A stretch of DNA of 64,000 nucleotides, taken from Candidatus Woesearchaeota archaeon (GTDB lineage: Archaea; Nanobdellota; Nanobdellia; Woesearchaeales; JABMPP01). Position 1 is the first letter of the stretch. Each line of letters opens with the position of its first letter. Location: NCBI GenBank assembly GCA_018303405.1, contig JAGVYD010000015.1, positions 1 to 64,000 of the forward strand, in the 5' to 3' direction. The position numbers were made by a program, and so were the translations under genes. Below, piece by piece: positions 8,907-35,506 of the stretch. The notes under the pieces are model-generated. The model was given only the letters and a program-made list of their open reading frames with translations. It did no database searches and was not told the origin of the DNA.

Positions 8907-9251
8907 TTACTTCTTGAGCTTATTAGCCAATTCTTCTATAAGTCCCTTGGCATCGCCTTCAACTACAATCGCAACGCTGGATGTGGGCAAGTCAAGGCCC
9001 GCGGCTGCGCCGAGCTCCTCTCTGCTGCCGACTATTGCACAGACAACTCCCTTTTCCTCTGCGATCAGGGGGATGTGCATAATAATCTCTGGAGGAGAAA
9101 CATCCTTGGCAATTGCAACCAATTTTGCCTGGCCTTTTTCCAAGGCCTTTGTAACTTCATTTGTACCCTTCCTGAGCTTGCCTGTTGCTTTTGCTGTCTC
9201 TATTGCTTCAAAAACCTTTTCCTGCATTTCCTTTGGTAATTCTTCTACCAT
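8907..9251 (-). CDS. rpl7ae: 50S ribosomal protein L7Ae (also box C/D, H/ACA and RNase P component)
   Basis: 114 residues. L7Ae binds kink-turns in 23S rRNA, guide RNAs and RNase P RNA. Seen: GTNEVTKALEKGQAKLV (RNA-binding helix), AKDVSPPEI, HIPLIAEEK and the LGAAAGLD loop. It is the first gene of the ribosomal protein cluster. Upstream (9252-9300) is the likely promoter region, divergent from the structured repeat at 9387. Confidence 0.97.
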   Translation of the reverse strand: MVEELPKEMQEKVFEAIETAKATGKLRKGTNEVTKALEKGQAKLVAIAKDVSPPEIIMHIPLIAEEKGVVCAIVGSREELGAAAGLDLPTSSVAIVVEGDAKGLIEELANKLKK

Positions 9252-9360: not shown

Positions 9361-9370
9361 GGTTTATAAA
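9361..9370 (+). promoter_or_regulatory. TATA box in front of the structured element at 9387
   Basis: GGTTTATAAA, with predicted start of transcription near 9390, right at the outer stem of the nested-hairpin element and far from any start codon. Confidence 0.5.
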
Positions 9371-9386
9371 TGTTGCGGGAGTGGCA

Positions 9387-9550
9387 GGCTTTGCCCGAAA
9401 ACTCGCCTTTCGGCCCGGTTTGGGCATCCGCTCAGCATTGCAGCTTCCCATGCATTGCATTTTTCTCCTCTACAACCCCGAAAAATGCATAATCCCTCCG
9501 GGAATGGGCTTCGCAAAATTGATGCCCAAACTCACTTTTCAGACAAAGCC
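9387..9550 (+). ncRNA. Candidate structured RNA / palindromic repeat, family 1 copy A
   Basis: Nested stems read directly. Outer P1 is GGCTTTG (9387-9393) with CAAAGCC (9544-9550), extended by GAAAA/TTTTC. A small hairpin GCC-TTTC-GGC spans 9405-9414. P2 is an 11-bp stem (9418-9428 with 9521-9531). P3 is TGCATTTTTC (9456-9465) with GAAAAATGCA (9480-9489). The same architecture and near-identical length recur at 22481-22642, with compensatory changes in P1 and P2. A TATA box sits just upstream. It could be a trans-acting RNA, a leader, or a MITE-like repeat; strand is a guess from the promoter. Confidence 0.65.
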
Positions 9551-9559
9551 GAAGTGGAA

Positions 9560-22445: not shown

Positions 22446-22480
22446 GGAGGCTAAACATGGATTTGCTCCAATCCTCCACA

Positions 22481-22642
22481 GGCTCTGCCCAGAATCTCGC
22501 CTTCGGCTCGAGTTTTGGCATCTGTTCGTCTTCAACTCCAGGAAAAATTGCATTTTTCTCTCTGGAACCGCGAAAAATGCTTTATGTAAAGATTGACAAG
22601 CCTCACAAAATTGATGCCAAAACCAAGTCTCTGGGCAGAGCC
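22481..22642. ncRNA. Candidate structured RNA / palindromic repeat, family 1 copy B
   Basis: P1 is a perfect 13-bp stem, GGCTCTGCCCAGA (22481-22493) with TCTGGGCAGAGCC (22630-22642). A small hairpin GCC-TTC-GGC lies at 22499-22507. P2 is TTTTGGCATC (22513-22522) with GATGCCAAAA (22613-22622). P3 is GCATTTTTC (22550-22558) with GAAAAATGC (22572-22580). Layout and length match copy A. An AT-rich element at 22656-22667 reads as a TATA box on both strands. On the minus strand it would start a transcript inside the P1 arm; on the plus strand it could drive the next gene. Confidence 0.65.
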
Positions 22643-22790
22643 TCCTCCGCAGTAACTTTTATATATGACTGCAGCATATGGAAGGCCAGGAACAGGTTGA
22701 ATCATATTCAGTGGAGACATATACTGTCAGGGAAAGTTTAGAGCGAAACTATTGTCCGAAACTGAACAAAAAAGAGGTAACCACAGTAAC

Positions 22791-34725: not shown

Positions 34726-34784
34726 GAGATTTTTAAGAAAAATCTCGTAAAAACAAAGGGAACATAAAGTTCCCCGACGCGATT
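34726..34784 (+). repeat. Twin-hairpin element E1
   Basis: Hairpin 1 is GAGATTTTT-AAG-AAAAATCTC (34726-34746), followed by an 11-nt A-rich linker. Hairpin 2 is GGGAAC-ATAAA-GTTCCC (34758-34774), then CGACGCGATT. Same plan as E2-E6 with different arm bases but conserved pairing. Confidence 0.8.
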
Positions 34785-34837
34785 TTTCTCAAAACATAAT
34801 AATCGCTATAATTGATATATATGTTAAAGAAGTATGA

Positions 34838-34932
34838 TGGCCCCGCCGTGATTTGAACACGGGACCTCACGATTTCTTCGCCTTTTGCAGGGCGTATCAG
34901 TCGTGCGCTCCACCAGACTAAGCTACGGGGCC
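34838..34932 (-). tRNA. tRNA-Ile (GAT) with a 21-nt intron
   Basis: Acceptor GGCCCCG/CGGGGCC, D-arm GCTT...GAGC, anticodon stem CACGA/TCGTG, T-arm CCGTG-TTCAAAT-CACGG. The anticodon loop is C-T-G-A-T-A followed by an intron (34874-34894, containing a CGCC/GGCG hairpin) at the canonical 37/38 site, then A38. CCA is not encoded. Confidence 0.93.
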
Positions 34933-34982
34933 AATGTATATCATGTTCTGGTTTACAGTCCTTCGCTTTCCGCAGGAAAGCT

Positions 34983-35034
34983 GTCCTTTCGGAGAAAGGA
35001 CGTTTTTGGGCTCAATCCTTTTTTTAAGGGATTG
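34983..35034 (-). repeat. Twin-hairpin element E6 (divergent)
   Basis: On the minus strand, hairpin 1 is at 35013-35034 (9 bp with one wobble) and hairpin 2 is GTCCTTT/AAAGGAC (34983-35001) with a 5-nt loop. An extra 7-bp hairpin (GCTTTCC/GGAAAGC, 34965-34981) follows. Confidence 0.65.
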
Positions 35035-35056
35035 CTACGGTTAAGCTATGGTGCCA
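35034..35056 (-). repeat. tRNA 5'-end fragment (acceptor arm plus D-arm)
   Basis: Read on the minus strand it begins GGCACCATAGCTTAACCGTAG, like the first 21 nt of a tRNA, then breaks off at the start of E6. No matching 3' part nearby. Confidence 0.55.
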
Positions 35057-35066
35057 ATGAATGCAA

Positions 35067-35139
35067 CGCCCCGGGCCAGGATCGAACTGGCGACCTCACG
35101 GTTAACAGCCGTGCGCTCTAACCGCTGAGCTACCGGGGC
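35067..35139 (-). tRNA. tRNA-Asn (GTT)
   Basis: Acceptor GCCCCGG/CCGGGGC with discriminator G, D-arm GCTC...GAGC, anticodon stem CACGG/CCGTG with loop CTGTTAA (anticodon GTT), T-arm GCCAG-TTCGATC-CTGGC. No intron. Hairpin 1 of element E2 overlaps its first two bases. Confidence 0.95.
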
Positions 35140-35195
35140 AATTTTTTAACAAAAAATTGCATAAAAAATTGAGGAACACAAGGTTCCTCGACGCG
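35138..35195 (+). repeat. Twin-hairpin element E2
   Basis: Hairpin 1 GCAATTTTTT-AAC-AAAAAATTGC (35138-35160), hairpin 2 GAGGAAC-ACAAG-GTTCCTC (35171-35189), then GACGCG. It starts exactly at the 5' end of tRNA-Asn. Confidence 0.8.
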
Positions 35196-35255
35196 TTTTA
35201 CATGCAATTCTGATAAACGCTATCGGACCTGTATACGACGCTTACTATCAAATCA

Positions 35256-35313
35256 CCGAGCGAATAGGGCTTTATGCCCTATCTGTTTCTATGCAATCTT
35301 TGTTAAAGATTGC
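35256..35313 (-). repeat. Twin-hairpin element E4 (inverted)
   Basis: On the minus strand, hairpin 1 is GCAATCTTT-AAC-AAAGATTGC (35293-35313), linker ATAGAAACAG, hairpin 2 ATAGGGC-ATAAA-GCCCTAT (35264-35282), then TCGCTCGG. Faces E2, with a ~60-nt centre between them. Confidence 0.8.
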
Positions 35314-35317
35314 CTGT

Positions 35318-35333
35318 CTGAGCTACCGGGGCA
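35318..35333 (-). repeat. Duplicate of the tRNA-Asn 5' end
   Basis: 16 nt identical to 35125-35140. With the adjoining bases it reads GCCCCGGTAGCTCAGACAGG on the minus strand, ending right after the D-loop GG, where E4 begins. E3 starts on the other side. Confidence 0.8.
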
Positions 35334-35390
35334 GATTTTTTAGCAAAAAATCTGGTAAAAAACAAGGGAGACATAAAGTCTCCCGACGCG
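35332..35390 (+). repeat. Twin-hairpin element E3
   Basis: Hairpin 1 CAGATTTTTT-AGC-AAAAAATCTG (35332-35354), linker GTAAAAAACAA, hairpin 2 GGGAGAC-ATAAA-GTCTCCC (35366-35384), then GACGCG. Confidence 0.8.
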
Positions 35391-35449
35391 ATTAAATGCC
35401 AATCATCAAATCTCTGCCGTGAATGTTTGCGACAATCATGTTCGAATCA

Positions 35450-35506
35450 CCGAGCGAATAGGGCTTTATGCCCTCACTGTGCCCACTTTTCTTTTTTAAA
35501 CACTAC
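35450..35506 (-). repeat. Twin-hairpin element E5 (inverted, partly decayed)
   Basis: Hairpin 2 AGGGC-ATAAA-GCCCT (35460-35474) and its flank are nearly identical to E4; the AT-rich hairpin 1 is degenerate. It is followed by CTGTCTGACCGAGGCAG, a shortened version of the tRNA 5' fragment next to E4. Confidence 0.65.

Follow-up and report, generated by a model that had tools for sequence, protein, structure and literature searches.

Prokaryotic miniature inverted-repeat transposable elements (MITEs) such as the Correia elements and MITEAba12 are short, non-coding, multicopy and foldable sequences that lie between genes, bounded by terminal inverted repeats (TIRs) and target duplications (PMC10969869). 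Insertion next to promoters has been described for other mobile elements. TnGBS, ISLre2 and ISKra4, which use Mutator-like transposases (p-MULT), insert upstream of sigma-A promoters at a distance of 15-17 bp and without damaging them, a targeting that the authors of that work called atypical and for which archaea, through ISH6, entered only as speculation (PMC3942029). In E. coli, IS5 has hot spots in destabilised DNA near promoters, with a 4-bp target in easily melted DNA (PMC5493358). The element described here occurs twice in the window, the 64,000 nucleotides analysed from the start of contig JAGVYD010000015.1 of a Candidatus Woesearchaeota archaeon (assembly GCA_018303405.1): copy A (family A, 164 nt) at 9387-9550 and copy B (family B, 162 nt) at 22481-22642, both on the plus strand. 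This unit of about 163 nt is very probably an IS5-related MITE positioned at a promoter edge, because it has TIR ends and a 9-bp target duplication and because autonomous IS5 elements with like ends and duplications are found in the same order.

The likeness to each of these systems is incomplete. The element shares the features of prokaryotic MITEs listed above, but unlike them it keeps a constant position relative to an archaeal core promoter, at whose edge it sits, and its internal stems covary deeply across many genomes and outlast the TIRs in conservation. Like TnGBS, ISLre2 and ISKra4, it lies upstream of a promoter at a short and constant spacing and leaves that promoter intact; these differ in their Mutator-like transposase, their bacterial sigma-A promoters and their preferred orientation, whereas here both orientations occur and the promoter is of the archaeal type, with a TFB recognition element (BRE) and TATA box. 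The E. coli IS5 transposase belongs to the same broad family, and its insertions are likewise favoured near promoters, but that preference lacks fixed spacing to a core promoter element.

The outermost stem, P1, is the transposon TIR, which in copy A is formed by GGCTTTGCCCGAAA at 9387-9400 pairing with TTTCAGACAAAGCC at 9537-9550. Direct repeats of 9 bp flank the copies and are identical at 8 or more of the nine positions in 97 of 151, as against 0.7% of shuffled pairs. Around copy B these are tcctccaca (22472-22480) and tcctccgca (22643-22651), matching at 8/9, and around copy A ggagtggca (9378-9386) and gaagtggaa (9551-9559), matching at 7/9. The window's own genome comprises 1.605 Mb in 23 contigs and is about 95% complete; DNA-level searches of it gave 36 matches with copy A and 40 with copy B, many places being common to both, and a covariance model made from 15 own-genome copies recovered about 55 distinct copies, some of its rows being the same copy on the reverse strand. 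Most are 143-219 nt long, too short for a transposase gene. The same model, extended to relatives as the initial annotation had advised, matches 51 of 353 genomes of the order (E up to 0.001, best 8 candidates scored per genome); 25 of 371 genomes in a phylum-wide sample match, all 25 within the same order, and the public records matched in a scan with the core pattern of the innermost stem, P3, all bear the name Woesearchaeota or Nanoarchaeota. The two copies first reported are thus real, but two is far short of the actual number. Of the alternatives then offered, a new non-coding RNA or a structured mobile repeat, the second is borne out by the many copies, inverted-repeat ends, 9-bp duplications and related autonomous IS5 elements, and the first is weakened by scarce G-U pairs, outward-pointing promoters and the lack of an Rfam match. 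Many copies with terminal duplications at random sites had been named as the pattern that would speak against the annotation; the copies and duplications are there, but the sites are not random.

The element occupies the upstream edge of a core promoter, and that promoter fires away from it. TTTA[AT]A lies 5-27 nt outward of the element, on either side, in 42 of 55 own-genome copies and 63 of 99 copies from other genomes, compared with 3.6% of random positions. Reading outward, the matches peak in a single bin of 5 nt, at offsets 15-19, whichever side or genome set is taken; counted by single nucleotides, 89 of the 105 fall at offsets 14-17. A logo aligned in the same direction passes from the 9-bp duplication through A-rich, BRE-like bases to TTTAWAWA and then to an ATG enriched about 45 nt out, and the gene table places many start codons 44-48 nt from the element, as leaderless genes would. 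In about two thirds of copies, therefore, the target duplication abuts BRE and TATA box. The TATA-like sequence noted beside P1 in the window is of this kind: TTTATA stands beyond the left edge of copy A at offset 16 (9365-9370, minus strand), directed away from it and facing a minus-strand gene (8907-9251) that by eye reads as ribosomal protein L7Ae, and beyond the right edge of copy B at offset 15 (22658-22663, plus strand), directed away to the next plus-strand gene. Orientation is free, since the TATA box is on the right in 58 copies and on the left in 47. Among 114 copies, 73 have a tandem pair of neighbouring genes, 30 a divergent and 11 a convergent one.

Candidate autonomous partners are found among the insertion sequences (ISs) of the order, 122 of whose 353 genomes have matches to the IS5-type transposase model NF033579. 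Several of these ISs have MITE-like ends and target duplications of 8-10 bp, among them those with the ends GGCTCTGTTCAAAATC (L184), GGGTTTGTCCCAAA (L198) and GGCTGCGTTGAAAA (L196). One genome, G045, holds both kinds of element: an IS (L155) with ends GGCTCAGTAGAAAATCTC and TTTTCTACAGAGCC, and a MITE (L129) with ends GGCTCTGTAGAAAATCTC and TTTTCTACAGAGCC, which agree at 17/18 terminal bases on the left and 14/14 on the right. The transposase of this IS matches NF033579 with E 2.7e-34 (119 bits, cut-off 140) and PF01609 above cut-off; its best fit is to IS5/IS4-type models, which sets it apart from the Mutator-like transposases of p-MULT. The target is also shared: of 11 ISs with MITE-like ends, 7 show TTTA[AT]A on one side at offset 14-17 and three more, by eye, a near match. 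The MITE and the ISs of this type thus have in common GGCTYTGTNNAAAA-type ends, the 9-bp duplication and the target, whereas the MITE lacks a transposase and has an unrelated, structured interior. We take these ends and the 9-bp duplication to be IS903-like. A search of the own genome for a long autonomous element by its terminal-repeat motif gave nine places, seven of them known copies and two new; the latter (L169 and L171) are again copies of the MITE, with a P3 loop enlarged by long inserts. In a quick scan, seven PF01609 elements of another genome (G047) showed no MITE-like ends.

Inside the TIR lies a fold of nested stems. In copy A, on the plus strand, it comprises the small hairpin P1b (GCC-TTTC-GGC, 9405-9414), for which GGC/GCC and AGC/GCT variants occur in other families; P2, with arms TTTGGGCATC (9419-9428) and GATGCCCAAA (9521-9530); an internal loop bearing a YTCR motif on its 5' side (CTCA, 9431-9434) and a YTCRCA motif on its 3' side (CTTCGCA, 9509-9515); and P3, with arms GCATTTTTC (9457-9465) and GAAAAATGC (9480-9488). 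P3 and the GCC/GGC hairpin are present in both copies, whose positions and stems had been correctly identified. The paired changes between the copies also exist, but had been assigned the wrong way round: copy A has P1 GGCTTTG/CAAAGCC and P2 TTTGGGCATC/GATGCCCAAA, and copy B has P1 GGCTCTG/CAGAGCC and P2 TTTTGGCATC/GATGCCAAAA. Folding of the single sequences beats every shuffle, with z of -4.0 as DNA for copy A and, as RNA, -3.6 for copy A and -5.0 for copy B. The own-genome copies fall into several families that differ at all stems, with P2 arms TTTGGGCATC, TTTTGGCATC, TTTTGCCATC, TTTTGCTGCC, TGTGCCGCC, TCTTGCCATC, GGCCAGCATC and others, each time with a matching partner arm. The P3 loop has three main classes, TCTCTGGAACTCC, TCCCCGTAAGGGACGTCCCCC and TTCCCATTGCAATTTCC.

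That the compensatory change is genuine and deep was confirmed in 104 aligned rows from other genomes, none of which entered model building. There pairing is kept in 96% of cells, both sides have changed in 35 of 36 pairs, and the covariation score is 0.512, as against 0.133 (sd 0.005) for shuffled alignments and at most 0.081 with slid structures; the alignment was fitted to the model and holds five reverse-strand matches of loci already present, and the margin is very large nonetheless. A further helix of 3 bp, P2b, lies directly inside the two conserved YTCR motifs in most families; runs of at least three pairs occur there in 91 of 118 elements, whereas 200 shuffles averaged 33 and never exceeded 44. 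The interior, made up of P1b, P2, P2b, P3, the YTCR motifs and the P3 loop, is an old conserved fold.

Deep covariation, conserved unpaired motifs (the YTCR pair and the P3 loop) and a covarying P2b are features of known structured RNAs, and the interior could accordingly be working as RNA: a MITE-borne gene for a structured non-coding RNA, or a cis-acting RNA, transcribed by read-through or from a cryptic promoter. The constraint on resident copies described below would fit such a role, and in the 73 tandem gene pairs read-through is possible. The composition of the stems makes it doubtful. An RNA helix tolerates G-U pairs; DNA, or an RNA required from both strands, does not. The cells of P2 and P3 comprise 2361 Watson-Crick, 19 G-U and 13 A-C pairs, so that G-U is no commoner than A-C (p 0.38) and amounts to 0.8%, as against 11.7% in 11 tRNAs from the same loci, whose folds are of minimum free energy (MFE), a method that tends to add G-U. 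Moreover, the element is placed upstream of outward-firing promoters, 30 of the 114 copies lie between divergent genes, and neither copy in the window matches Rfam 15 at gathering thresholds or at E up to 1, in keeping with the initial view that no known RNA class fits. The near absence of G-U favours a structure that is DNA-level or strand-symmetric over an ordinary non-coding RNA.

How the parts of the element decay bears on whether the interior matters after insertion. Private substitutions, those seen in a single copy within clusters defined by overall identity, number 5/1292 in P2, 12/1112 in P3 (11 of these from three clusters with the second loop class) and 13/932 in the P3 loop, as against 62/1802 in the TIR and 193/4770 elsewhere. 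The TIR carries about five times more than the internal stems (p about 1e-10), and the P3 loop too is hit less often than the TIR (p 0.002). Inert resident copies would decay alike in all helices; the uneven decay therefore suggests that the interior is constrained in place, and this constraint seems separate from mobility. The opposing possibility is that the interior serves transposition alone, in bringing the ends together or binding transposase, and that the apparent constraint reflects the sampling of recently active lineages. Several families within one genome have the fold in common, and copies of the C family with the same 54-nt P3-loop insert were amplified, as might be expected of such a role; the TIR, certainly required for transposition, is nonetheless the helix that accumulates the excess of private substitutions, and a role in transposition alone is unlikely. 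Somewhat less likely is that the arms are matched by mutation, through hairpin template switching or conversion between copies, with no selection and a functionless interior. The arms are indeed almost perfectly Watson-Crick, and mismatches are more frequent in P1, whose arms lie far apart, than in P2 or in P3, whose arms lie close together, but template switching leaves unexplained both the sparing of the unpaired P3 loop and the recurrence of conserved unpaired YTCR motifs in most families. Purifying selection might also have produced the promoter association secondarily, by removing harmful insertions elsewhere from compact genomes where the elements are intergenic. This is very unlikely, since insertions keep a single distance (offset 14-17), whatever the side or the orientation of the element, instead of spreading over intergenic DNA, and since autonomous ISs keep that distance too.

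The preferred reading is that of a MITE whose interior would act as DNA, given stems that are nearly pure Watson-Crick without an excess of G-U; a protein would recognise it as a cruciform or single-strand hairpin. A DDE transposase of the IS5 family (type NF033579), presumably with IS903-like ends, would have mobilised these copies in trans and placed them against core promoters, on the upstream side, generating the 9-bp duplication. The duplication touches BRE, and the TATA box mostly begins 14-17 nt from the element, so that the promoter stays intact and fires outward; the transposase may recognise promoter DNA or the TATA-binding protein (TBP) and TFB bound to it. Because resident copies have few mutations in stems and P3 loop, the interior may still act where the element sits. 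It might, for example, form a block immediately upstream of the promoter that is bound, bent or insulating, with protein-bound or bent DNA as the best guess; such action in place is plausible, if short of probable. A more tentative proposal is that of a module spread by transposition to many promoter edges and acting there as folded DNA, its transposase reading the core promoter or TBP/TFB. Integron attC sites likewise have a DNA-level fold, with structure kept more than sequence and a variable terminal loop; the cassette arrangement is missing here, and the likeness is one of resemblance only.

Several points weigh against this interpretation. Most NF033579 matches, that of the IS in G045 included, fall under the curated cut-off, and the own genome, at about 95% completeness, has no PF01609 or NF033579 match, other transposase families not having been searched. 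MITE and IS5 genes co-occur weakly (23 of 51 genomes with the MITE, 99 of 302 without, counted by eye). About one third of copies have no TATA match at the expected place, and the random positions used as control were genomic and not intergenic; the sharp peak over neighbouring offsets is independent of that control. For the G-U count, the P2 and P3 stems came from a Watson-Crick search or the model and those of the tRNAs from MFE folds, and selection on RNA from both strands, or hairpin-templated correction, could yield equal scarcity. The clusters used for private substitutions are small and the copies related, so that the counts are not independent events.

Promoter-edge targeting by an archaeal IS5-family element would extend to a new setting a behaviour that, in the open-access literature, was otherwise found described for bacterial Mutator-like elements only, and whether a transposase reads BRE and TATA or bound TBP/TFB becomes testable. 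If the folded-DNA module is real, which is a tentative supposition, a mobile, promoter-proximal element based on DNA structure would be of a new kind; no earlier report of the element was found in open-access papers. The case also illustrates that strong covariation need not imply RNA, as the pairing here looks DNA-level. The MITE further serves as a natural marker by which core promoters and leaderless starts can be located in archaea not yet cultured.

Comparison of orthologous insertions between genomes gave no clear case, and two P3 core patterns found no exact match in viral contigs. Copies without a TIR in one genome (G130), considered as a different element, were rejected as truncated by contig ends. 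Extra hairpin-like inserts, often containing GAGYGAGTGAC, occur at one place in the P3 loop in many copies of different families and genomes (L102, L103, L104, L105:3061-3279, L020:4270-4488, L037, L043, L220, L122, L132, L142 and L153). One identical 54-nt insert is shared by five copies of the C family, and was therefore amplified together with the element. In two genomes (G056 and G277) the P2-P3 core is found with quite different, CCAGAGCTGTGGCT-like outer arms (L150, L151, L270, L271 and L272), as if it can be combined with other ends. Different families also lie side by side, C adjoining a shortened A and B near A (L015:2831-3080 and L025:1388-3640), which suggests repeated use of the same region.

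Elsewhere in the window, at 34749-35480, a tRNA-Asn region contains repeated half-tRNA-like stretches, and a neighbouring tRNA has a four-base anticodon according to ARAGORN.
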